NCBI GenBank assembly: GCA_024330185.1
Contig: JANDLV010000008.1
Location: 1 to 64,000, forward strand
Reading direction: 5' to 3'
DNA length: 64,000 nt
Source: Candidatus Siliceabacter maunaloa
Lineage (GTDB): Bacteria > Actinomycetota > Thermoleophilia > Solirubrobacterales > Solirubrobacteraceae
This document shows, piece after piece, positions 32,331-44,779 of this stretch (the first letter of the stretch is position 1; each line of letters begins with the position of its first letter). A program made the translations under genes and the position numbers. Below the pieces are notes generated by a model. The model worked only from the letters and a program-made list of their open reading frames with translations. It was not told the DNA's origin and did not search any database.

Positions 32331-32639
32331 TCACGGTGTAGCCGAAACCTCGCGCGCGACCTCGACAAGCGCGTGTGCCTTCACGTCGCTGATGTACCGG
32401 AAACAGTCGGCTACTTCGGGTATATTCGAGGCACCTTGGGCGGCCGCCTCGGCCCGCTCACGGCTCTCCCACACGAGCACGTCCGTCCACTCCTCGCCGC
32501 CGAGCGGGGCGAGCCGAGCGCTCACCAAGCCGGGGAAGCTCGCGGCGAGCGTCGTGATCGCGCGCTCCCACGCGTCCAACAGCCCCCGCTCGTCCTCGGA
32601 GCGAACGGTGAACTGACTCACCTCAAGCGCCTCGGACAC
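32331..32639 (-). CDS. ABM-fold (antibiotic biosynthesis monooxygenase-like) protein
   Basis: A 102-aa protein of the dimeric ferredoxin-like ABM fold: VSQFTVRSEDERGLLDAW, FPGLVSARLAPLGGEEWTDV, LVWESRERAEAAAQGAS and ADCFRYISDVKAHAL. Members include cofactor-free monooxygenases and haem-degrading enzymes; the catalytic type cannot be told here. GTG at 32639 is chosen because GGGAGG sits 8 nt upstream; an in-frame GTG at 32648 touches that site. It begins 61 bp after the ligase gene and is the probable last gene of the island operon, with tailoring of the pathway product as the plausible role. Confidence 0.72.
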   Translation of the reverse strand: MSEALEVSQFTVRSEDERGLLDAWERAITTLAASFPGLVSARLAPLGGEEWTDVLVWESRERAEAAAQGASNIPEVADCFRYISDVKAHALVEVAREVSATP

Positions 32640-32700
32640 GGCGAGCACCTCCCGAATCGACCAAACGGCTCGATCAACGCATTGCGCTCTTCAGGCGAGG

Positions 32701-34089
32701 TCATGAAGCCAAAGGGACAAAGCGCCTGAGTTTACCTGTCTGACCATGGCGATCGATGCGATCGACGACCATGATATTCACCGCCGGATGTCGCAAGCCA
32801 AGCCCGTCCAAGATCTTCTCGATCCTCTGAGTCAAATCTGGTCCAATTGCGGAGTCGGCCCGCACGACGATGTCGACGCCGCTGCACGACTGGCGCACCT
32901 GATATTCGATGATAGCGCGCGCCTCGGTCAGCACCGATCGAAACACTTGGGGGTGTACCACAACCCCGCCCTGGTAACAAAAGCTGTCATCGAGACGCCC
33001 CTGAATGTGGCCAATACGTCGCCCAGTCCATGGTCCAGGATTAGGTTCCTCGAGAAACATCACCTCGTCGGTGATCTCATAGCGTATTATCGGCAGTACG
33101 CTGTTGACCACGTTCGTCACAAAAACGCGGTCGGCTCGGTCTCCGGGCAATACTGGGCGTCCTTCAGCATCCACTGGCTCGATCACGCTGAGGTCTTCGG
33201 CTATGACTAGGCCGGGATTGACACCATCAGAGGCGGCAAGGGTTCCCACCTCTGTCGCCCCCCAGATGTCGCAGATCGTGGCACCGAATGCAGTCTGAAG
33301 AAGGGCTTCGCTCTCCGGCAGAAGGGGCTCGCCAGCGGTCATGATCTGTATTGGCCGGGCATGGAGGCGGCCAGCGAGCTTCTCTACTGCAAGCGCATGA
33401 AGCGTCGACGGATAGCTTCCCAGCATCCCTGGGTCGAGGTCGTTGAGCGCACTCACCAAGCTCGGCAAGGGCTCATGGGGCGAAAAGAGGTGGATTGGAT
33501 TTTGCGCTTGCGAAAAGCAGTAGATGGCTGCAGCCGAGCCATGCACCGGACTAGCCGCACCGATTCTTGCCGTGGCCAGTGAGCCGGCCAGGATGGGCAC
33601 GCGGGCGTTGCCGCCCACATTGGCGGCCAGCCAGCCGGCAAAGTCCCAGACCATGACCGCTCGGTGGCCGGTCGAGCCTCCGGTAGCCATTACGTGGTAC
33701 TCGTCGAGCAGATAGGCTGGTTCGCCACCCTCAAGGAAGTCGAGGTGAGAGAATGCCATCTCTAGAGAGAGACGTCGATCCGTGACAATGTCGTCCCAGT
33801 GGGTCATCAGATCCGCTTTGGTCATTGGCGGCACGGAGGTGAGGTCCCCTCCACTGAGAGTCTCGGTATCGACGTGAGCGAGTCGCTCGGCGTGCCAGGG
33901 CGAGTGGACCTTGGCATGGTGGACCAGCGCGCGCAGCCGCTCGTCCCGCAGAGCCCACAGCCGGCTCAGCGGCCAAGTCAATTTTTCCACCTCGCTCGGC
34001 ATGCGCGCCTGGAAGGCTTGCACGTGGCGCTGCCGTTTGAGCTCGTAGTCGTCGCGCCCGGCTTCGACGTCTCTTCGCGGGTCGCTCAC
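32701..34089 (-). CDS. AMP-forming acyl ligase (phenylacetate-CoA ligase/CapK-like)
   Basis: A 462-aa adenylate-forming enzyme of the PaaK/CapK branch. The phosphate-binding loop is VMATGGSTGHRAVMVWD, the aromatic-Gly-x-T-E motif is DIWGATEVGTLAASDG, the hinge Asp region is GHIQGRLDDSFCYQGG with VVVHPQVF, and the C-terminal catalytic Lys is in GQTGKLRRFVPL. It should activate a carboxylic acid as acyl-AMP and pass it to CoA, an amine or another acceptor. GTG at 34089 lies in a GTGA overlap with the methyltransferase stop. There is no carrier protein gene nearby, which argues against a standard NRPS loading step. Confidence 0.85.
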   Translation of the reverse strand: MSDPRRDVEAGRDDYELKRQRHVQAFQARMPSEVEKLTWPLSRLWALRDERLRALVHHAKVHSPWHAERLAHVDTETLSGGDLTSVPPMTKADLMTHWDDIVTDRRLSLEMAFSHLDFLEGGEPAYLLDEYHVMATGGSTGHRAVMVWDFAGWLAANVGGNARVPILAGSLATARIGAASPVHGSAAAIYCFSQAQNPIHLFSPHEPLPSLVSALNDLDPGMLGSYPSTLHALAVEKLAGRLHARPIQIMTAGEPLLPESEALLQTAFGATICDIWGATEVGTLAASDGVNPGLVIAEDLSVIEPVDAEGRPVLPGDRADRVFVTNVVNSVLPIIRYEITDEVMFLEEPNPGPWTGRRIGHIQGRLDDSFCYQGGVVVHPQVFRSVLTEARAIIEYQVRQSCSGVDIVVRADSAIGPDLTQRIEKILDGLGLRHPAVNIMVVDRIDRHGQTGKLRRFVPLAS

Positions 34090-34889
34090 GGCATCTCCGC
34101 CGACCAGGTGCCCTTGACAGCTACGCCCAAGATCAGCGCTCCACCGCCCAGCCAGTGCCAACGGATCAAGCGACGGTCGATGGCAGTGGCCAGACGGTAG
34201 TACCAACGCACCCCAGGTATCGTGCGAGGCACCCCGAGGCTTCCTAGGAGCATCGTCGTTGCCAGCGAGCGCCAGCAAAGCGTCCGGGGCAGCGCCTCGC
34301 GCAGCTCCCCGCGGGAAAGCGGGCGCTCATGGGCGGATTGCCCTCCCTCGAGCGGTGGTGTGGCGGGCGCCAGTCGAGCCAGCAGTCGCTCGAGCGGCCC
34401 GAAAGCCCAGTCCGCGTAGTCCGCGTTCGGCTCCCTCACCACCAGTACCCCCCCAGGGCGGACGACACGTGCGGCCTCTGCAAGAACCTCCGGCCAATCG
34501 GGCACATGATGAAGCACCCCGCTACAGACGACTGCGTCGAACACGCCGTCCTCGACGGGCAAGTGTCGGGCGTCCGCTTGGATTAGTGTGCACCGGTCCA
34601 GCGGCAGCTTCTGTGCCGCAACTCGCAGCATGCCCGAGGAGTGATCAACCCCGACGACGGTGCGCCCCGCTGCCGCCAACGCCTCGCTCACTCGTCCAGT
34701 ACCACAGCCGACGTCGAGCACTACGCCTGCGGTCAGCGAGACTATCGCCGGAAGGATCCAAGCCTCCGCTGAGCGAAGGGGCTCCTCCTTGACGTAATCG
34801 TCGTAACGGTCTGCCTGCGCGTCGTGCGAGGCGCGATCATTTCGCGTTATGTCCTCGACCTGCTGACGACTCTCACGGGTCACCGTCAT
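34086..34889 (-). CDS. SAM-dependent class I methyltransferase (island operon)
   Basis: A 267-aa methyltransferase of the UbiE/Methyltransf_11 type. Motif I is VVLDVGCGTGRVSEALAAAG, followed by GVDHSSGMLRVAAQKL, DARHLPVEDGVFDAVVCSGV and HHVPDWPEVLAEAARVVRPG. A C-terminal extension of about 100 residues has a hydrophobic stretch (LATTMLLGSLGVPRTIPG) and ends with GGGALILGVAVKGTW. ATG at 34889 forms ATGA with the upstream gene and the stop forms GTGA with the ligase gene. Substrate unknown; the operon suggests methylation of the peptide or acid product. Confidence 0.88.
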   Translation of the reverse strand: MTVTRESRQQVEDITRNDRASHDAQADRYDDYVKEEPLRSAEAWILPAIVSLTAGVVLDVGCGTGRVSEALAAAGRTVVGVDHSSGMLRVAAQKLPLDRCTLIQADARHLPVEDGVFDAVVCSGVLHHVPDWPEVLAEAARVVRPGGVLVVREPNADYADWAFGPLERLLARLAPATPPLEGGQSAHERPLSRGELREALPRTLCWRSLATTMLLGSLGVPRTIPGVRWYYRLATAIDRRLIRWHWLGGGALILGVAVKGTWSAEMP

Positions 34890-35956
34890 GGCGGCGCGAC
34901 CACCGAAGTAACAACGCCTTCGAACCACGCACGGTCCATGCGCGGGCCGGCACTGGTCAACAGCAGGCCTCGGACGCCGCGAGTTTCATCCTGCCAGATT
35001 GCCTCGTGCGGGCCGAATCGATGATCGACGAAGGCGACCTCCACTCCGTCGCCGTTGGGTATCACCGTGTCGAAGGTGCAAGGGTGCGCTTCAGTCCGAG
35101 ACGGTAGGTCGATTCTGCCACAACCGGCCCACTGGGCCACAATGCGCACCTCGCGTCCTCGATACTCGCCGCTCGTAAAGAGCACTTCGACCTCCCTGGC
35201 GTCGCCCGTGCTACCGAACAACGCTGCCGAATCGAAGCGAAAGCCCGAGGGGGACTGAAGGTCGAGTCTGGGCATTCCCCACGAGCCGACGACGTCCTGA
35301 TCGTCCGTCCAGATGTAGGTCTCATCCTCAGGACGCCGGAAGCGGAACAGACCATGCGGCGGATCTACGAGGCGCGGACGGAACCGGGCCCAGTAGCTGA
35401 GCCGAGCAAAGCTTTGCTGCCCCAGCAGAGCCAGATGCGTCGGAGAAACCGGCTCTAGTGTCCGATAGAGGGTGACGATCTCCTCGTCGGAAAACGTGCC
35501 TGCGAGGACTGACAGCTCGCAGGACGTTCGGTAGATACGAGCATACGCCCCCCGGTGCCCCATGTAATCGGTGCCGAGCCATACGACGTAATCCGGGTGA
35601 ATCGGTTCCGCCCAAGTCGGTCCGCCCCACAGGCATGGTTGGTCCGCCGCCGCGGGCGCCCAGTCGTATAGGAACTCCTTGACGCGGAGCTTACGGCCCT
35701 TCCCCGCGATCTCGAACCGATAGGAAGATGGGTTCCCCTCGCTCCACGGTGATCGACTCCCTGCAGAGCCAGCCGGTCGTCCCGGGCAGCACTCCGGCCT
35801 TAGCGTCTGCGTCACGATCGTGGTTTCGGGCGGCAGCCCTCGCGGGACCAGCACCGGAAAGTTGCACCAGACTTGCGCCTCATCCGCGGCCATAGGTGTG
35901 ACCCTCGCCTCCGGCGAGGTGGGGTCCTTGACCGTCCGAGGCTGCCAGTCGCTCAC
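34886..35956 (-). CDS. Unrecognised 356-aa protein of the island operon
   Basis: No family is recognised with confidence. The protein is soluble, with no signal peptide or membrane helix, and rich in Trp, Arg and Pro. The first half contains SYRFEIAGKGRKLRVKEFLY, a DWAPAAADQPCLWGG segment and SCELSVLAGTFSDEEIVTLY, which resembles the short beta-alpha units of DUF4245/DUF4367-like domains. The second half has a similar beta-rich rhythm (LDLQSPSGFRFDSAALFG, GREVRIVAQWAGCGRIDLPS). Six or so cysteines are scattered (WCNF, ECCPG, PCLWG, AGCGR). GTG at 35956 overlaps the binding-protein stop by 4 bp and ATGA couples it to the methyltransferase. It could be a binding partner or a new enzyme. Confidence 0.8.
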   Translation of the reverse strand: MSDWQPRTVKDPTSPEARVTPMAADEAQVWCNFPVLVPRGLPPETTIVTQTLRPECCPGRPAGSAGSRSPWSEGNPSSYRFEIAGKGRKLRVKEFLYDWAPAAADQPCLWGGPTWAEPIHPDYVVWLGTDYMGHRGAYARIYRTSCELSVLAGTFSDEEIVTLYRTLEPVSPTHLALLGQQSFARLSYWARFRPRLVDPPHGLFRFRRPEDETYIWTDDQDVVGSWGMPRLDLQSPSGFRFDSAALFGSTGDAREVEVLFTSGEYRGREVRIVAQWAGCGRIDLPSRTEAHPCTFDTVIPNGDGVEVAFVDHRFGPHEAIWQDETRGVRGLLLTSAGPRMDRAWFEGVVTSVVAPP

Positions 35957-37641
35957 GGTGCGACCGCGTGGTGACGGATGCGGAAGCTTGCGAAGTCGAA
36001 AACGTTGGCGACGCCGCCTAGGCACCGTCCGCCCTGCCACCTGTCACGGTAGTTGAGGTAACTTACCTTACCAGGTACGAACAGGTGGGTTTGGTGGTGG
36101 ATCGCCAGTGCGGCGAGCTCGCGATAGCAGCGGTGTGCTTGCACGGCAGACTCGGCGTGGCGCGCTTCACTGACCAACCGATTGGCGCCCGGAAGGCGAA
36201 GGCCGAGTTTGGCAGGCAGCAGCGAATCTTCTGCGAGAAGTTGAGATGCGAAGGTGTAGGGATCTGGGTAGTCAGCGTCCCAGCCAATCCACGCTATAGG
36301 ACAGCGGGCTGCGTACAGCAAAGACACTAGCCTGCCTAGCGGTAGCGCCCGAACAGTCATACGACAGTCTGGGAAAAGCGAGCTGAAGCCCGCGGCGTGA
36401 ATCTGTGCGGCGCGCATCCTGGCGTAGTTCCCAGCGTGGGTGTAGGCGACAAGCCTCACGCCGCCCCTCGTAACGTCGCCATTCCACGCTCTGGCCAAGT
36501 GGAAACGCGCTCTGTCGAGATCGAAGCAGAACTCGGGCACAGGGCCGTCAGCCAGCGAGGGGCGTGGGAACGGGCCATAGTGTTCAATTCCTGGACCGCA
36601 CAGGGCCTCCTCACAGAACGAGCCATGGTCGAAGCAGAAAGCGAGAGCGAGGCGAAAGTCGCGGTCCGACAGAGTATCCGGACGCATTCCCTGGCCATCG
36701 AAGCGGGCAGACCCCACCGCTTCGCATTGCTTGTTCAGCTTGTATGTCAAAAAGCCCAAGGGATTCACATGCCACTCATCTGGGTCCTCCTCGAGAAGCA
36801 GATTGGGCACGTCGCGTATACGTCGCAGAGACTCGGGCTGACAGATAGCCACGTCGCTGTACCCGCGAGTGAAAGCGGTTTCCCGCTCGATTCGGTCATC
36901 CTCCGAGACGAGCTCGACCTGCTTTGCGGCCGGTAGTTGGCCCCAGTAGCGTTCGTTTCGCCCGAACCGAACCACGCGCTTCTGCCGGTTCCAACTCTCC
37001 AACCTAAAGGGGCCCGTCCCGTTGGTCCGCGCTCGAAGAGCCGTCTGCTCGGGGAACAGGTAGTCCTCAAGACTTTCAGGTGTCCCGTCCCATTCGCCTT
37101 GAGCCACAGCCCAGTCCCGACGGAGAACCAGTGACCAATTGGCAAGCAGCGCGATGAACGGCGCGAACGGCTCGGCCAAGGTGACGGCCACGGTCGAGCC
37201 ACGCAGCTGAATTCGATCGAGTGCTGGTGCGATGTCGCTACCGACGGGCGCGGCCACTCGTCGACCCAGCAGTGCCTCCAGCCAGAGTGCCGAAGGACCC
37301 TGAGCGGTCACGATGGTTCGCCTGAGCGAATAGACCACGTCCGTCGGAGTAATCACATGACCGCTGTGGTCGCAGATATCCGCGCGTATCGCCACCCGAT
37401 ACTCGACCTCACCGCCCGTGATGGTCCTCGCGGTAGGCAGTTTGGCGGCTAGCCAAGGGAGCAGGCCACCTTGGCGAGGGCGGTAACGCACTAACGGCTC
37501 GTAGACATTCAACACGACATGTCTACTGCTGCTGTCGTAGGCAGCGTGGGGATCGCACGTCACAGGATCGTCGAACACTCCGATCGTGAGCTTCGGGCAA
37601 TCGCTGGTGGCGAGCCCTACTTCGTCGTCAAGCGCCTTCAT
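35953..37641 (-). CDS. SBP_bac_5-type oligopeptide-binding-like protein without signal peptide
   Basis: A 562-aa member of the family 5 solute-binding proteins (DppA/OppA fold). Family features: LTIGVFDDPVTCDPHAAYDS near the start, LNVYEPLVRYRPRQGG, GTGPFRLESWNRQKRVVRFG, RNERYWGQLP, DRDFRLALAFCFDH and GWDADYPDPYTFASQLL. The N-terminus (MKALDDEVGLATSDCPKLT) has no signal peptide or lipobox, and no ABC permease or ATPase gene is in the window. The protein is therefore probably cytoplasmic and would bind a peptide or peptide-like intermediate rather than serve import. ATG at 37641 overlaps the SUMF1-gene stop (ATGA). Confidence 0.87.
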   Translation of the reverse strand: MKALDDEVGLATSDCPKLTIGVFDDPVTCDPHAAYDSSSRHVVLNVYEPLVRYRPRQGGLLPWLAAKLPTARTITGGEVEYRVAIRADICDHSGHVITPTDVVYSLRRTIVTAQGPSALWLEALLGRRVAAPVGSDIAPALDRIQLRGSTVAVTLAEPFAPFIALLANWSLVLRRDWAVAQGEWDGTPESLEDYLFPEQTALRARTNGTGPFRLESWNRQKRVVRFGRNERYWGQLPAAKQVELVSEDDRIERETAFTRGYSDVAICQPESLRRIRDVPNLLLEEDPDEWHVNPLGFLTYKLNKQCEAVGSARFDGQGMRPDTLSDRDFRLALAFCFDHGSFCEEALCGPGIEHYGPFPRPSLADGPVPEFCFDLDRARFHLARAWNGDVTRGGVRLVAYTHAGNYARMRAAQIHAAGFSSLFPDCRMTVRALPLGRLVSLLYAARCPIAWIGWDADYPDPYTFASQLLAEDSLLPAKLGLRLPGANRLVSEARHAESAVQAHRCYRELAALAIHHQTHLFVPGKVSYLNYRDRWQGGRCLGGVANVFDFASFRIRHHAVAP

Positions 37642-39092
37642 GAACGTCCCACGGCTTCCGCGACGCATCCGTCTGGCCAAGGCCGCTGGTCCGCCGGTCG
37701 CGGGCAGTCACAGACGCAGCGGAAACCGTTTTCGAAATGACGGTCAGTCAACAGGTCACGTCCCCGGAAGGCCACGGAGGTCAGCTCGGGGAGCGAACTC
37801 CACGTGCCACCACGGATCACCGGATAGGAGCGCCAGTCATAAACAACGTCTAAAGCGTCCCTCTTGCCGACGTCTGGTTCGAGGGCGTTGCGCGAGAAGA
37901 AACTAGAAGCTGTCCATTCCCACGCATTGCCCGCCATGCCGCAGACCCCGAAAGGGCTCACGTTGCCCGCATCGTCAACTGGCACCGTCAGCGTCGCGCT
38001 GAGATCTTCGTTTAGCTCCAGAAGACGGGACCGCCACGCGGTTATGCTGCTTGGACTGCCCCCGAGCACGTCGGAGTGGCACCGCACCTGAGACGGATCG
38101 AAGGCATCGCCCCATGGGAAGACACGATCGTCGTCGCCCTGGGCGGCGCGCTGCCATTCACCCTCCGTGGGAAGCCTCTTGCCAGACCAGGCGGCAAACG
38201 CGTAGGCCTCGAACCAGTCCACCCCTGTGGCTGGGTGGCGGGTCTGAAATCGGAGGTCCAAAAGCGTGTTTCTGACATGAAGCTTGCCCGGTGGTTCGCT
38301 GGGATGGCACAACGCGTGACTCCGCGCCGCTTCCGTAGCCGCAAACTCGTCGTACTCAGCCACAGTCACTTGGTGAGCATCAATCCAGAATCCCGCGACA
38401 GCCGTGGACCAAGGTTCCTGCACATCCGACCAATCGAAGACGCGGGACAGTGCAGCAAGCCCCGGCGGAACCGCGAAGCGCACCTTTCCTTCAGGAATGA
38501 ACAACATCCCCGAGTCATCATGCTGAGGATGCGCGACAGACGGCGGTGGGGGTGATGGCTCGACAAAGCTTGTGGGGAACTCGTGGGTGCCATCGAAGAG
38601 TCGGGATTCGATGTCGCCGAGGACCTCGGTGTCGTCGGTCCCCACGATTCGGACGATGGCGTTCAAGACCATCGCGTGGCCTATGCCGACTGGCTTCCCG
38701 GCTTGAGTCCTCAACCGGTCGCTCGCACTGCCCACGAGCAGCAACAGGTCACGAAGCGCGCCCTGAACGCGGAGGTCGCCAGCGAGACGGATCGCTTCAA
38801 ACGCGACGAAATCCTCGGGATCGTGGGTGAGCCACGTGACTGCGGCTGACACCTCGTCCTCGTTGACCTCGACAAATTGGCTGAGTCTCCCCAGTACCGT
38901 GCGGCGAACCCAGGGGTCAGGGTGCATGGCGGCGACGCCGCAAAGCTCTCCCACCTCTCCCGATGTCGGCCTGCTCGCTGTGATGAGTCGTTGTAGTTCA
39001 TCCAGCCGGTGCCGGTGGGTCTCCGTATCGGAAGGTTGAAGATCTGCAGGAGCCGGGAAATCGTCTAGAAAGGAAGTGATGCGCGTGATCAA
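37638..39092 (-). CDS. HEAT-repeat/SUMF1-domain fusion protein
   Basis: A 484-aa two-part protein. Residues about 35-165 look like HEAT repeats (HPDPWVRRTVLGRLSQF, DPEDFVAFEAIRLAGDLRV). Residues about 195-465 form a SUMF1 (formylglycine-generating/EgtB-type) domain: GFWIDAHQVTVAEYDEF, HPATGVDWFEAYAFAAWSGK, RLPTEGEWQRAAQGDD, FGVCGMAGNAWEWTAS and the final VIRGGTWSSLPELTSVAFRG, GFRCVC. The two catalytic cysteines of true FGE should sit in the RGGSxxCxxxxC segment, but that segment here has W-S-S-L-P-E-L-T. Sulfatase activation is therefore unlikely. Only the TTG at 39092 gives full length, since an in-frame TGA lies just upstream. Confidence 0.86.
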   Translation of the reverse strand: MITRITSFLDDFPAPADLQPSDTETHRHRLDELQRLITASRPTSGEVGELCGVAAMHPDPWVRRTVLGRLSQFVEVNEDEVSAAVTWLTHDPEDFVAFEAIRLAGDLRVQGALRDLLLLVGSASDRLRTQAGKPVGIGHAMVLNAIVRIVGTDDTEVLGDIESRLFDGTHEFPTSFVEPSPPPPSVAHPQHDDSGMLFIPEGKVRFAVPPGLAALSRVFDWSDVQEPWSTAVAGFWIDAHQVTVAEYDEFAATEAARSHALCHPSEPPGKLHVRNTLLDLRFQTRHPATGVDWFEAYAFAAWSGKRLPTEGEWQRAAQGDDDRVFPWGDAFDPSQVRCHSDVLGGSPSSITAWRSRLLELNEDLSATLTVPVDDAGNVSPFGVCGMAGNAWEWTASSFFSRNALEPDVGKRDALDVVYDWRSYPVIRGGTWSSLPELTSVAFRGRDLLTDRHFENGFRCVCDCPRPADQRPWPDGCVAEAVGRS

Positions 39093-39330
39093 ATCAACCA
39101 GCTTTCTACTGCAGAATCACGGGAACGGCTCGATCATCGCGATTGCCGCTTCCCATCGCTATTTCCGCTTCCAGATGCCCTCGGGTTCGGCACGTTATGA
39201 CAGCGAGACAAAGCGCTGCCATAAACGGCTTCGGAGACGCGCGTTAAGTCGGCGGCGCAAGGACGCAATGCCGAAGCTCAAGGCCTCCCCACGCGCCCAT
39301 GCGCCCACCGAAACTAGCTCGCTCAACGTA
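39093..39330. other. Gap between the 26-codon gene and the HEAT-SUMF1 gene
   Basis: A 238-bp stretch inside the transcript predicted from 39455. A 43-codon minus-strand frame (39195-39326, TTG start) and several shorter ones exist but lack Shine-Dalgarno sites. No terminator with a T run is seen. It may hold regulatory RNA structure between the small gene and the enzymes. Confidence 0.4.
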
Positions 39331-39411
39331 CTACCACTTGGTGGCGGGCATGCGAAGAGCCGGGGTAATCCGCTCGTCCCTAGCCCGCTGCCACTGACGC
39401 GACCATGTCAC
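39331..39411 (-). CDS. 26-codon peptide gene, first gene of the island operon
   Basis: A small open frame in the operon direction with GTG at 39411 and TAG at 39331-39333. The peptide begins (M)TWSRQWQRARDER, continues ITPALRM and ends PATKW; it has three Trp, five Arg and no Cys. A perfect AGGAGGTGA lies at 39420-39428 with an 8-nt spacer to the GTG, and a sigma70-like promoter lies 50 bp upstream. Together these make translation very likely. It may be a precursor peptide for the downstream enzymes, with a C-terminal Lys-Trp as a possible site of modification. An alternative is a Trp-codon leader controlling the operon, as Trp codons stand at positions 3, 7 and 26. No family is recognised. 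Confidence 0.7.
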   Translation of the reverse strand: MTWSRQWQRARDERITPALRMPATKW

Positions 39412-39419
39412 GATTTAGC

Positions 39420-39428
39420 TCACCTCCT
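39420..39428 (-). promoter_or_regulatory. Perfect Shine-Dalgarno for the 26-codon gene
   Basis: Read on the minus strand the sequence is AGGAGGTGA, fully complementary to the 16S rRNA 3' end, with an 8-nt spacer (GCTAAATC) to the GTG at 39411. It is the strongest ribosome site I found in the window and fixes GTG, not the ATG at 39406, as the start; that ATG frame closes after eight codons. Confidence 0.8.
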
Positions 39429-39461
39429 CTCGTGCTTTGTCGTTGGCCAAGGGCAAACGCG

Positions 39462-39489
39462 ATCTTACCAACCTGGCACCTGGCGTCAA
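39462..39489 (-). promoter_or_regulatory. Predicted sigma70-like promoter of the island operon
   Basis: Minus strand: TTGACG at 39489-39484, a 16-nt spacer and TAAGAT at 39467-39462. Expected transcription start is near 39455, giving a short 5' leader of about 27 nt before the Shine-Dalgarno. The match to TTGACA is 5 of 6 and to TATAAT 4 of 6. It is the only such pair noticed upstream of the small gene. Confidence 0.55.
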
Positions 39490-39723
39490 GGCCGTGTCGG
39501 TGCCGGGCCCCTGCTCCACCGCCTCGGCGCTCATCCCACATGACCTCACACAGCGCATAGGCGTCGGTACTCTCGTCGAAGTTGACGCCCAGCGCTCGAA
39601 AGTCAGAATTCGGGTCAGACCGTGATTCCTGAGTAAGCCGTCTGCGGCGGGGGTTGTTGGTCTGTCCGGGCCGGTTGGCAGCGTGTGTCTCGTCGGGTTT
39701 GCAGGCGATCGAGGAGGCGCACC

Positions 39724-40635
39724 GTGTCAGTGAAGTCGGAGGCCAAGGTCAAGCGACGTGCGAAGCGCGGTCGGCCGGGGTCGGTTGGGTCGGGCGCCGC
39801 GCATCGAGGTCGTCGCCGACGACGAGACGCTCACGCCGTTGGCGGTTCGGCGGTGGTCGGTGAGTTGGCGCGCCGCTTGGAGCTCATACCGGCGCTGGAT
39901 CGCGCGATCGAGACCGCCGCCAGGGTCGGCGGTCTGGAGGCGGTCAAGCAGCGCGCCCGGGGCTGCTCGCCGGGTCAGCTGCTGGTCACGGTCGCGGAGT
40001 CGATGCTGTGTGGTGGGGACTCGATGCTCGACCTCGAGCGCCTGCGTGGCGACCAGGCGGGCGCCGAGCTGCGCGCGGTGGGCGAGGTGCCGGCAGCGTC
40101 GACGGCGTGCCAGCTCGCCCAGCGCTATCGGCCCACGCATCTGCGCGCGGCCGAAGCGGCGTTCGCGCGCTGTGCCAACGCGATGGACGCCCAGATCGGC
40201 CGCGCCCCGGATGGGCCGGTGACGCTGGACTTCGACTCCACCGGCGTGGAGGTCTATGGGCGCCAGAAGAAGGGCACCGGGGTCAACTATCAGGGCCAGC
40301 TGGCCTACCAGCCGCTGCTGTGCTCGTGGGCCCAACGCGGCCGGCTGCTGGCCAGCGAGTTCATCGCGCTGCTGTGCTGCTGCCTGATCGAGCGCCAGCT
40401 GCGCAACGCGATGAACCGCGAGCAGATCACGCAGCTCCCGCTCTACCCCGAAGACCGCGCCTGCACCGCGCCGACCGCAGTCCGCATCTTCGACCACCTC
40501 GCCCCGCTCCAACGCCACCACCTGATCCGTGACGGCCAAGCAGTGCAGACCTTCGAACCGCAGCTCACACCGCTACAAGCGCAGCTACTGGACCTGCTCG
40601 GCGTTCCCGTCAGCGCCTACACCAGCAACCCCTGA
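39724..40635 (+). mobile_element. Chimeric transposase: IS1380-type N-terminus, IS1634-like C-terminus
   Basis: One open frame joins parts of two unrelated DDE transposases. The first two thirds are IS1380-like: KSEAKVKRRAKRGRPG, GCSPGQLLVTVAESMLCGGD, DLERLRGDQAGAELRAVGEV and VTLDFDSTGVEVYGRQKKGT with the catalytic Asp region. From about residue 210 the sequence becomes the C-terminus of an IS1634/IS4-like enzyme: FIALLCCCLIERQLRNAMNR, PLYPEDRACTAPTAVRIFDH and LTPLQAQLLDLLGVPVSAY. The switch is at LLAS-EFIALL. Near the start a pair of compensating shifts hides the normal segment APRIEVVADDETLTPLA. The product lacks a complete catalytic core and is a deletion fusion. Confidence 0.7.
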
Positions 40636-40684
40636 CCCACCGTCGATCCGCGCTGACGTGGGGCCGGAGACGGCCCCCGAGAAG

Positions 40685-41040
40685 CGCGGAAAGGGAGACG
40701 CCAGATTGGGCAGTCCCGCTATGAGACCCCCGTGGCCGATCTTGCAGAAGGTGCGCCGCGCGATGGCCGCTTCCGAGCGAGAGCACCTGCCCGACCAGAT
40801 CGAGGTCGACGAGTGCTGGATTGGCGGCGTCGAACCGGGCCAGAACGGCCCTGAACCCGGCGGAAGACGCTCGTGGCCGCGGCCATCGAGGTCCGCGGGG
40901 GCGGCTCGGGACGCCTGCGCTTGGCGGCGGTGGCCGACGCCTCGGGCCCCACCCTGCAGACGTTCGCTACCAGACCGTTGCGCCGGGGGCCACCCGTGCA
41001 CACCGACGGGCTGGCGCAGCTATAACAAGATCGGGCGCAG
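40685..41040 (+). mobile_element. IS1595-family transposase fragment
   Basis: Pieces in two or three frames: LQKVRRAMAASEREHLPDQI and EVDECWIGGVEPGQ (the zinc-less DDE N-terminal part with the first catalytic Asp), then after a frameshift KTLVAAAIEVRGGGSGRLRL and AAVADASGPTLQTFA, then a third shift with TPTGWRSYNKIG. Both ends of the gene are missing and no inverted repeats were found. It is a remnant that shares the transposon-rich strip 39.7-41.0 kb with the chimeric element. Confidence 0.7.
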
Positions 41041-41050
41041 GAGCTATGGC

Positions 41051-41554
41051 CTACCCGCTCGTGGAGTAGGAGAAGAGCCGCTCGGGCCCTATCTCGAGTA
41101 AGGCGACCGCCCAGTCGGGCGGATCGTAATAGCGCTCGCGCCAGCGGCGCTCGAGGCAGCCTCGAACTGTGTCCAGTGCTTCATCCTCGTGGATTCGCAC
41201 CGGCCCCTCAACCGTGACTGCGGTATGGGTGCGCGTCTCGTCACCGCCGGCTGTCACGTCCTCCATGACGACAAGCGACGCCCACGGAAGCGCACGGACG
41301 TTCCGCAGCCGGGCGCCGCGAACGGTGGCGACCCAGAAGCCGCCGTCTTCCACGAGGAACCCGACCGGTGCTGCCAAGGGCCGGCCGTCGGACCGCCCGG
41401 TAGCGAGGACCGCGTAGCGAACGCGCTCGAGAAACGACTGGAGACCGACGGCATCGAGCGCGCTTTCCTCCGGCCATGTGGTGCGAGGAGGATGTGCGTT
41501 GGCATAGCTCCGCCGCTGTACTTCCGCCAGCGTCTCCGCGTCTTTCGTCCTCAT
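41051..41554 (-). CDS. Pyridoxamine 5'-phosphate oxidase-like split-barrel protein
   Basis: A 167-aa FMN-binding split-barrel protein (PNPOx/PPOX-like). Typical strands are RYAVLATGRSDGRPLAAPVG, GFLVEDGGFWVATVRGARLR, NVRALPWASLVVMEDV and VTVEGPVRIHEDEALDTVRG. Family members bind flavin or F420 and reduce varied substrates; which one cannot be told. It is the only apparently intact single gene in the right half of the island and has no operon partner: IS fragments flank it on both sides. Start ATG at 41554. Confidence 0.78.
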   Translation of the reverse strand: MRTKDAETLAEVQRRSYANAHPPRTTWPEESALDAVGLQSFLERVRYAVLATGRSDGRPLAAPVGFLVEDGGFWVATVRGARLRNVRALPWASLVVMEDVTAGGDETRTHTAVTVEGPVRIHEDEALDTVRGCLERRWRERYYDPPDWAVALLEIGPERLFSYSTSG

Positions 41555-41892
41555 CGACCACGCTCCCCTGTCGAGGCCGAGGGCGGACGTCGCGGTCCTG
41601 TAACTACCCGCCCCCTCTGAACCCCACTCGCCGGCAGCGTATCGCTTCGCGTTACAGGACGTCGATGTCGACTACTGGAGCAACGTCGGTGCGCCAGGTC
41701 TCGTGGATCGGCCACCTCCGCCAGGCGAAGATCTGCTCGGTTCGCTGCGGGAGCGGCCCCCGCCGGACCACCCCGGTCGCGACGGCCGCTCCCGTCCGGC
41801 GCCCTTCCTTGGGCCGCCCCCCGTCTTGCACTACGCCGACACCGCAAATGCCGTCTATCGGCGAGCCCGCCAAGCCAACGCGGAGATCGGCG
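41555..41892. other. Unassigned stretch before the ISAzo13 element
   Basis: No complete gene. On the plus strand a frame reads FALQDVDVDYWSNVGAPG and, near the right end, VLHYADTANAVYRRARQANA, the second part resembling a strand-helix unit of VOC (glyoxalase-like) proteins. It is open into the IS end at 41893. It may be the fragment of a gene cut by the insertion; the evidence is weak. Confidence 0.3.
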
Positions 41893-42419
41893 TAAGGGTT
41901 CGTGAATCATCAACTGCGTGGTTTGCGGTGGTTATGTAGAGGACTGCCAGCTCGGGCGGCGAATCCGGGGATCGTGAGCGAGGAGCCAGCGAGGCTGCGG
42001 GAGATCTCGGCGCGGCTGGCGCAGGCGAGGATCGGCGAGCGCTGGCGGCGTTTGGGCCGGAGTGCGACAAGCGGCGGCGGCGTTTGTGGGCGGCGGCGGA
42101 GGCGCGCTCGCACGGGCCGGGGGGCGTTGTGGCGATCGCGCGGGCGACGGGGATTGGCGAGGATACGGTACGTCGCGGGCTGGCTGAGCTTGAGAGCGAC
42201 GAACGCCCGCAAGCGGCCGCGTCAGGCGTGCTGGGGGCGGCCGGCGGCCGCTGACGCAGACCGATCCAACGATCGTGGCCGACCTGGAGCGGCTGGTGGA
42301 CCCGGCCACGCGCGGTGATCCCGAGTCGCTGTTGCGCTGGACGTCCAAGAGCCTGGCGCACCTTGCCGGTGAGGTGTGTCTGACTCAACGCGACAGATCG
42401 GGGAGTTGATTAGCCCGCA

Positions 42420-43445
42420 TCAGCGGGCCCCCGGCGGTTGGTGTTGGTCGCGCTGCTTGCGATGGTAGGCGATTCGGCGTCGGCGGGCGCGGTAGAGGCC
42501 GGCGCGGCGTGTTCGACGGATCTGGGGTCCGCGGCCTTGGTGTTCGTCGTCGGGGGTGACGTAGCCGATTCCGGCGTGTAGGCGCACGGTGTTGTACTCG
42601 ATGCGGACGATGGCCAGCTCGGCGCGCAGGACGGCGGGGTCGGCGATCGCTTCGAGGTGGGGCCAGTCGGCCTTGATGTGGCTGAACAGGCTCTCGATCC
42701 AGGCCTGGTCGGTCGGGGTGCCCGGTCGCCCGAAGTGCTGGGCGATCGCGCACATGGCCATGAACTCGCGCGTGGACCCCGAGGTCATCTGGGGCCCGTT
42801 GTCGCTGACGGCCAGCAGCAGCGGGCGGGCGGGATGGTCGAGGGTGGGGTCGGCCAGGGCGTCCTGACGGGCCTCGACGTGCTCGAGCAGCCCCTCGATC
42901 GCCAGCGCGTCGGTGAAGGCGACCTGGACCTGGGTGGTGGTCTCCTCGCCCGAGACGACCTCGCAGATCCACTTGCGCGTCACGAGGTCCATGACGGTGA
43001 TCACCGCGACGCGGGGGCAGGCGGTGAAGCGCGTCGTGTCATAGATCCAGATCGAGTTGGGCTCGTAGTCGGCCCAGTCGGGAAACGGGCGGCGCTGCGA
43101 TCGCCCGGCCCGCCGGGGCCGACGCAGAATGAGGCCGTGAGCAGCCAGAACGCGGCGGACCGTGGCCGGCGAGACCCACACCAGCCCTTGGTAGGAGCCG
43201 CGGTGAGCGAGCTTGCGATGCGAGCGGTCGATCTCGCCCCACGCCTCGAACAGCGCGATGATCGCGTCCTGCTCGCAGGCCAACAGGCCGTGCACCGCAT
43301 GCCCGCCGGGCCCAAGGTCGGCCAGGGTGCCGTCTGCGCGGCGCTGATGCCAGCGCCACGCCCTGGCCTCACCCAGCTCGAGGTAGGCGCAGGCGCGGCG
43401 GTGCCCCCAGCCCGCCGCTGTGGCCTCTTCGATGAGCTCCAGCAC
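42420..43445 (-). CDS. IS3-like OrfB integrase-core transposase
   Basis: A 341-aa DDE transposase. The HTH_21-like N-terminus (WGHRRACAYLELGEARAWRW) is followed by the rve core: YEPNSIWIYDTTRFTACPRV with the first Asp, VSDNGPQMTSGSTREFMAMC with the second, and GTPTDQAWIESLFSHIKADW with the Glu. In the family OrfB is made by -1 frameshifting from OrfA, and the frame is indeed open upstream of the ATG at 43445. Since orfA is broken, a functional fusion protein is doubtful although OrfB itself is intact. Confidence 0.82.
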   Translation of the reverse strand: MLELIEEATAAGWGHRRACAYLELGEARAWRWHQRRADGTLADLGPGGHAVHGLLACEQDAIIALFEAWGEIDRSHRKLAHRGSYQGLVWVSPATVRRVLAAHGLILRRPRRAGRSQRRPFPDWADYEPNSIWIYDTTRFTACPRVAVITVMDLVTRKWICEVVSGEETTTQVQVAFTDALAIEGLLEHVEARQDALADPTLDHPARPLLLAVSDNGPQMTSGSTREFMAMCAIAQHFGRPGTPTDQAWIESLFSHIKADWPHLEAIADPAVLRAELAIVRIEYNTVRLHAGIGYVTPDDEHQGRGPQIRRTRRAGLYRARRRRIAYHRKQRDQHQPPGAR

Positions 43446-43469
43446 GCCCGCCTTGGTGGCCGCGCGACG

Positions 43470-43820
43470 CGACGAGGGATGCGGCCACTCAGTCCCAACG
43501 CCCTTTTCCCTCCGCGAGCATCAACCGCACGCCCATCTCCTTGAGCGCCTCGGACAGCCGGGCGATCGGGCAGCTGCCAGCTCACGATCGACGCCGCCGG
43601 CCTTGACGCCGGGGCGCGACGAGGCCAGCGCCTCCAGCGCGCCCGCCTTGGCGACCTGGCGCAGCTTCATCACCGTCGAGCGATCGACGCCCGCGCGGTC
43701 GGCGGCCTCGCTGATCGTGGCCTCGCCACGCAGCAAGCCGATCCAGATCTCATACTTCTGCGACGGCGACAGAAACCGCTTGCGACGACGGCCCCCGCCC
43801 TGTGATCCTTGCTCGGTCAT
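43470..43820 (-). pseudogene. IS3-like OrfA with an internal frameshift
   Basis: The ATG at 43820 opens MTEQGSQGGGRRRKRFLSPS and a helix-turn-helix, EIWIGLLRGEATISEAADRA with VDRSTVMKLRQVAKAG. After ELAAAR the frame breaks: the original reading terminates soon, while one base away the expected continuation IARLSEALKEMGVRLMLAEG appears and ends G-K-G-R-W-D. A single-base change therefore separates the DNA-binding part from its leucine-rich tail. Confidence 0.7.
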
Positions 43821-43931
43821 CCAGCACTCCTCCTCGAAGAGCCGAAGACCCTGCCAGATGCGGGCTAATCAACTCCCCTATCTGTCGCATTGAGTTGAGT
43901 CAGACGCAAACCACCCGGGGCGCTGGGCGAG

Positions 43932-44779
43932 ATGGGCCATCAGGTGTCTGATCACACCGTCGGCAAGCTGCTGCGCGGACTGGGCTACCGGCTGCAGGCC
44001 AACCGCAAGACGCGCGAGGGCAGCGATCATCCCGACCGCGACCGGCAGTTCGAGCACATCGACCAGACCGCCCGGACGGCGATCGCCGCGGGCCAGCCGG
44101 TGATCAGCGTCGACACCAAAAAGAAGGAGCTCGTCGGCACCTACAAGGCGATCGGGCGCGAGTACGAGCCCGGCGGCAGGCCGGTCGAGGTCAACACGCA
44201 CGACTTCCCCGACAAGAAGCTCGGCAAGGCCGTGCCCTACGGGATCTACGACCTTGCCGGCAACGAGGCGTTCGTGTCGGTCGGGATCAGCGCCGACACC
44301 GCCCAGTTCTCGGTCGCCAGCATCCGCGCCTGGTGGCAGCACCTCGGCCGCGAGCGCTACCCCGACGCCACTCAGCTGACGATCACCGCCGACTGCGGCG
44401 GCTCCAACGGCAACCGCACACGCCTGTTCAAGGTCGAGCTGCAGCAGCTGGCCGACGACACGGGCCTATAGATCGAGGTCTGCCACTTCCCGCCCGGCAC
44501 CAGCAAGTGGAACCAGATCGAACACCGCCTGTTCTCGCACATCGGCCAGAACTGGCGCGGACGGCCGCTGACCAGCTACGAGGTGATCGTCGACCTGATC
44601 GCGGCGACCACGACCACGACCGGCCTGAAGGTCTACGCCCGCCTCGACGAACACGAATACCCAAGAAGATCACCGCCACCGACCAACAGCTCACCGACGT
44701 CAAGATCGCCCGCCGCGACTGGCACCCCGAATGGAACTACCTCATCACGCCCCACCAGCACAACGGACCCGACCCTTGA
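43932..44779 (+). pseudogene. ISAzo13 transposase, C-terminal part with stop and frameshift
   Basis: Continues the interrupted transposase: LQANRKTREGSDHPDRDRQF, QPVISVDTKKKELVGTYKAI (first catalytic Asp), NTHDFPDKKLGKAVPYGIYD and TQLTITADCGGSNGNRTRLF (second Asp). A TAG at 44469-44471 stops it. Reading on gives IEVCHFPPGTSKWNQIEHRL, containing the usual catalytic Glu region, and after another shift at about 44655 KKITATDQQLTDVKIARRDW and the end at 44779. Nonfunctional. Confidence 0.8.

Follow-up and report, generated by a model that had tools for sequence, protein, structure and literature searches.

The precursor peptides of PQQ and mycofactocin, PqqA and MftA, are about 20 to 30 residues long, are encoded early in their operons, carry two conserved core residues, and are consumed into a small molecule. 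RiPPs of the MNIO (DUF692) type are reportedly short peptides modified by metal enzymes, and ammosamide is said to involve a pearlin-type carrier peptide. In the pearlins (3-thiaglutamate), the residue at the C-terminus of a ribosomally made carrier is reported to be where the chemistry takes place (PMC9303977).

A peptide encoded in the window, by which we mean the whole 64,000-nt stretch of Candidatus Siliceabacter maunaloa DNA analyzed here, resembles these systems and departs from each of them. Like PqqA and MftA, it is short, encoded early in an operon, and has two conserved residues, but its core is Lys-Trp (KW), its partner is a protein with HEAT-like and SUMF1 domains (HEAT-SUMF1), and no radical SAM or PqqD-like match was found among the operon proteins scanned. 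It is like the pearlins in the C-terminal-residue chemistry that we propose for a ribosomal carrier peptide; PEARL, however, adds a residue from an aminoacyl-tRNA, whereas Lys-Trp is encoded in the KW peptide, and there was no PEARL-like (LanB-like) protein among the Pfam matches of the operon. MNIO systems differ in that SUMF1/FGE is a separate protein family, and no DUF692 match appeared in the operon proteins scanned. Finally, FGE, EgtB, and CalU17 have the SUMF1 domain in common with the window protein, which differs in its HEAT-like N-terminus, in FGE cysteine columns that never hold Cys, and in its link to a tiny KW peptide. We consider the 26-codon ORF to be very probably a precursor or carrier peptide of a RiPP-like kind, with a Lys-Trp end that the HEAT-SUMF1 protein would modify.

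The peptide gene and its operon

The features discussed below are as follows.

41051..41554, minus strand: PNPOx-like protein, beyond an IS relic; cluster membership uncertain
39462..39489, minus strand: sigma-70-like promoter match, TTGACG-16-TAAGAT (consensus match only)
39420..39428, minus strand: ribosome site AGGAGGTGA, sole copy in the window
39331..39411, minus strand: KW peptide gene, 26 codons, GTG start, TAG stop; heads the operon
39334..39339, minus strand: codons of the terminal Lys-Trp, common to all 48 curated peptides
39255..39304, minus strand: imperfect stem-loop at the site equivalent to the relatives' hairpin; not significant in the window
37638..39092, minus strand: HEAT-like plus SUMF1/FGE-sulfatase domain protein (PF03781, E 3.7e-44), proposed modifying enzyme
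35953..37680, minus strand: SBP_bac_5 protein without an evident signal peptide; in a distant Bacillota bin (L040), its relative lies directly behind the KW peptide
34886..36040, minus strand: 384-aa protein without a Pfam or NCBIfam match
34086..34928, minus strand: class I SAM methyltransferase
32701..34278, minus strand: PaaK/F390-synthetase-like adenylating enzyme, below curated cutoffs
32331..32648, minus strand: ABM-domain-like protein, below the Pfam cutoff

The product of 39411-39331 on the minus strand, VTWSRQWQRARDERITPALRMPATKW, has 26 codons and is basic, since 5 Arg and 1 Lys stand against 1 Asp and 1 Glu, with Trp at positions 3, 7, and 26. Its ribosome site, AGGAGGTGA (39428-39420), precedes the GTG (39411-39409) by 8 nt, and the TAG lies at 39333-39331. 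The site occurs once in the 64 kb, both strands counted, and scores 9 matched bases, compared with 3 to 4 for the six genes downstream when their longest-ORF starts are taken. Thus, an earlier note on this DNA was correct in describing a basic peptide with three Trp residues, placed 8 nt from the best ribosome site in the window among genes with weak ones. The sigma-70-like promoter that it also described is present as a consensus match (39489-39462, minus strand), with TG preceding the second hexamer; its activity as the peptide promoter is plausible, because a 700-nt stretch holds two such sites where 0.2 would be expected, the second of them on the opposite strand. Separately, a 39-codon ATG ORF (39415-39534, minus strand) stops between the ribosome site and the GTG and may be a chance or truncated frame.

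Downstream of the peptide, the minus strand encodes, in order, the HEAT-SUMF1 protein, the SBP_bac_5 protein, the 384-aa protein, the methyltransferase, the PaaK-like protein, and the ABM-like protein, with the later genes overlapping. No protease was evident in the operon, and a PADLOC scan of five of its proteins returned methyltransferase-type matches only. The operon looks to have been acquired by transfer, because G+C drops to 61-67% in the run (32-40 kb) while most of the flanking kilobases that lie outside the relic zone have 71-76%, because transposase relics border the run, and because the 384-aa protein is confined to its own genome among kin. Specifically, that protein matched only the window's own genome, both among 151 kin genomes and, as a profile, among 399 genomes of the class; with no relative of it in the 150 other kin and 398 other class genomes, a close orthologue for comparison is absent. 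The HEAT-SUMF1 protein had only weak FGE-family matches among kin genomes, and a scan of viral contigs gave no close relatives. The relics upstream of the operon (39685-44471) are IS1380-, IS3/IS481-, and ISAzo13-like and may have cut off further cluster genes. The PNPOx-like protein beyond them is a possible outlying part of the cluster, as at least 16 of the 51 loci fetched have PNPOx-like genes (see below); it had no blastp match to the PNPOx-like genes of those loci.

The predicted fold of the 384-aa protein (mean pLDDT 74.9) had no PDB match at E 0.001, and relatives of the protein occur in 19 of the 51 fetched loci. Relatives also lie on haloarchaeal plasmids, where the two regions inspected have no annotated SUMF1 gene close by, and at one locus (L062, 10761-14609), a relative is contained in a single 1282-aa ORF with an asparagine-synthetase part.

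An unusual SUMF1 protein

The N-terminal part of the HEAT-SUMF1 protein matches designed alphaRep (HEAT-like) repeats by profile over residues about 40-166, while its HEAT_2 match (E 6e-4) is below the family cutoff. The best PDB profile matches of the SUMF1 part are CalU17, EgtB, and FGE. In the predicted model (mean pLDDT 71.5), the helical N-terminus is good, the catalytic part is weaker, and residues 388-451 are poor. Ten residues are invariant in 48 aligned proteins (His57, Asp91, Asp94, His263, Asp292, Glu392, Asp446, Arg451, His452, and Glu454). Alignment columns 433 and 438 are those that we take to correspond to the copper cysteines of FGE (C336 and C341 in the human enzyme). Column 433 is Ser in 47 of the 48 proteins, with Asn in the remaining one, and column 438 is Cys in none of the 48. 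Judged by these columns, the protein is not a canonical FGE. Further, it remains below the curated NCBIfam cutoffs for EgtB/OvoA/SenA (75.9 of 420 bits for SenA and 73.5 of 360 for EgtB).

A family of KW-ending peptides

To place the peptide among its relatives, we assembled 87 loci: 80 of the 304 from a genome scan with an alignment of seven SUMF1 proteins as the query, 6 plasmid loci, and the window. They were divided by whether the match covered the N-terminal part: 51, the window among them, are HEAT-type, and 36, among them L042, have other FGE-family genes. We then counted, in the 600 nt upstream, ORFs of 15-40 residues whose C-terminus is KW followed by 0-3 residues and whose ribosome site has at least 4 matched bases. 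Such an ORF was found at 45 of the 51 HEAT-type loci, many of which are Streptomyces and not independent, at none of the 36 others, and in 20 of 1020 random 600-nt segments of HEAT loci, into which a true peptide can fall. The random segments are the fairer control, because the 36 FGE controls come largely from other phyla. Among the three options named in the earlier note, a precursor peptide is strongly favored, and a Trp-sensing leader is disfavored on the grounds given below. The next commonest C-terminal dipeptides, TK and AA (17/51 each), are mostly residues flanking the W.

At three to four further HEAT-type loci, the KW peptide lies elsewhere, has a longer tail, or has a weaker site: L048 has a weak ribosome site, a haloarchaeon (L053) has a peptide ending in KWDAIT, and in L040 and L050, the peptide is elsewhere in the locus. 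No KW peptide was recognized in L057, and the KW-ending ORFs of L049 and L067, with unclear starts, were kept out of the curated list, which holds 48 peptides (33 distinct) from actinobacteria, one Bacillota bin, and one haloarchaeon. A tblastn search of plasmids with the window SUMF1 protein returned 234 records, of which 23 reached a coverage of 80% or more; identity stayed below 60% throughout. The six Streptomyces plasmid loci inspected all have a short ORF with a K-W or K-W-A-A end before the SUMF1 gene, unannotated as far as the incomplete plasmid gene table tells. None of the 7 of 48 peptides scanned (19-aa peptides being below the tool's length) matched a curated NCBIfam family, PqqA/MftA types included, and searches of an open-access literature collection gave no description of KW peptides beside SUMF1 genes. 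The family is widespread and apparently undescribed.

K-W is the only part common to all 48 peptides; T/S-K-W is common in some subtypes. The note's suggestion that a terminal P-A-T-K-W might be conserved therefore holds for K-W and not generally for P-A-T. Behind the Lys-Trp, tails vary (KW, KWAA, KWSA, KWTA, KWEA, KWD, and KWDAIT). The window peptide falls in a Trp-type group with L023, L031, L040, L053, and the KWAA group, laid out as W at position 6 or 7, a basic/polar stretch, and KW, while the other subtypes read M-x-x-x-x-F-I/L-x-S/T-R-D/E...KW in 19-21 residues. The window, L023, and L031 peptides have 26 codons each, with window identities of 8/26 and 7/26 to the latter two. By its sequence, the window peptide is a member of this family of KW-ending, precursor-like peptides: with a Trp-type profile built without it, the window ORF ranked first (E 8e-4; next 0.05) among the window's 930 small ORFs (15-45 aa, counting every start), and with an all-subtype profile, it ranked second (E 0.23).

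The relatives are under purifying selection. Synonymous changes exceed nonsynonymous ones in three subtypes (pN/pS of 0.34, 0.21, and 0.59), and the pair L023/L031 has pN 0.07 against pS 0.46. The claim is limited to the relatives, because substitutions between the window peptide and its nearest relatives are near saturation (pS 0.58-0.69, pN 0.54-0.57). The relatives show neither the stops nor the frameshifts that the note had proposed to look for; the frame, the ribosome site, the C-terminal K-W, and the N-terminal Trp of the close group are all kept.

The relatives' neighbors are natural-product genes; as in RiPPs, a short gene-encoded peptide is kept beside biosynthetic enzymes. In the 51 loci fetched from the HEAT list (L042 in, window out), genes called by a crude GC3-weighted method, longest-ORF calling having given shadow ORFs, included PhyH families (24 loci), MFS proteins (25), TAP-like hydrolases (18), and PNPOx-like clusters (16, with representatives checked and two clusters omitted as antisense shadow ORFs without a Pfam match). 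The distant Bacillota bin (L040) has SUMF1, SBP, and methyltransferase in common with the window, in the order SUMF1 (two pieces), methyltransferase, KW peptide, SBP_bac_5, PhyH, a second SUMF1, and MFS. Its SBP_bac_5 protein is 28.5% identical to that of the window, and neither has a signal peptide evident by eye in its first residues. The window SBP_bac_5 protein is encoded in an operon that has no permease genes; together with the place of its L040 relative directly behind the KW peptide, this suggests that it binds peptide in the cytoplasm.

Alternative explanations

A regulatory alternative is an attenuator, in which a ribosome stalling at the Lys or Trp codon would decide termination at a hairpin before the SUMF1 gene. 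Many relatives do have Trp as their final codon, and at 43 of 48 loci, the 120 nt that begin at the peptide stop contain a hairpin more stable than that of any of 25 shuffled versions (mean -34.9 kcal/mol, compared with -19.6 in an upstream control). However, most subtype B and C peptides have one Trp rather than a run, residues beyond K-W are also kept, the peptide is followed by an SBP gene in L040 and by an MFS gene in L050, and the operon is not one for Trp or Lys synthesis. Nor did a simple duplex test of the hairpin's 5' arm at 12 of the 48 loci give a clear competing antiterminator: the arm paired with upstream sequence about as well as with shuffled versions of it (the largest excess, in L046, was about 2 standard deviations) and, at 11 of the 12, more weakly than with its own 3' arm, the arm of L050 being ill-defined. 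The window itself failed the shuffle test, as did L053, L043, L062, and L054; its dinucleotide z was -0.48, and four relatives had values of -3.4 to -5.4. The search for a terminator-like stem with a T-run gave nothing in the window region, and the window had no Rfam match at the gathering score. We therefore regard attenuation as unlikely, and a precursor is preferred to a regulatory leader because the peptide belongs to the KW family beside an unusual SUMF1-type enzyme. The relatives' hairpin may instead be a partial terminator or mRNA stabilizer that favors an excess of precursor.

An unmodified small protein, that is, a short subunit or activator acting on HEAT-SUMF1 by binding only, would account for the near one-to-one co-occurrence with HEAT-SUMF1 and for the shared C-terminal motif; it sits poorly with the variable tail (KW to KWDAIT) and the biosynthetic surroundings, and we judge it as improbable as attenuation. 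With 930 short ORFs in the window, one might also fall by chance beside a chance match to a ribosome site, but the cross-species co-occurrence and the first rank of the ORF with the window left out of the profile make this very unlikely.

Proposed function and implications

In the precursor mechanism that we propose, the KW peptide, encoded first in the operon, would be made in excess from its strong ribosome site, and its N-terminal part (Q-W-x-x-A/x here; F-I/L-x-S/T-R-D/E in other subtypes) would serve as a recognition motif. The HEAT-like domain of the SUMF1 protein probably recognizes this N-terminus, and the SUMF1 domain, without the copper cysteines of FGE, may then modify the C-terminal Lys-Trp. 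Binding of the peptide probably falls to the SBP_bac_5 protein, which appears to be cytoplasmic, and the released Lys/Trp-derived unit could be finished or attached by the 384-aa protein, methyltransferase, PaaK-like ligase, and ABM-like protein. We infer the modification, its site, the role of each enzyme, and the product.

In S. coelicoflavus and Streptomyces sp. NBC_00525, the KW module lies inside larger regions with type II polyketide synthase genes; because of this position, we suggest that its product may be a unit added to aromatic polyketides. At L112-L116 (NZ_CP107979.1 and NZ_CP107835.1), KW modules are found in large plasmid-borne regions that carry type II PKS, sulfotransferase, cysC/cysD, and several FAD monooxygenase genes. 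More tentatively, and with somewhat less than even confidence, the peptides could form a new bacterial and archaeal precursor class, in which HEAT-SUMF1, with a metal site unlike that of FGE/EgtB (candidate His57, His263, and His452), oxidizes an encoded C-terminal Lys-Trp and so yields a dipeptide-derived unit, which Streptomyces would incorporate into aromatic polyketides.

A HEAT-SUMF1 gene together with a 19-31-codon ORF ending in KW offers a marker for this gene-cluster family, whose precursor had no annotation in the six plasmid records examined. If the proposed reading is true, RiPP chemistry would gain a further type of enzyme, and some of the orphan aromatic-polyketide clusters in Streptomyces may carry a ribosomally encoded building block.
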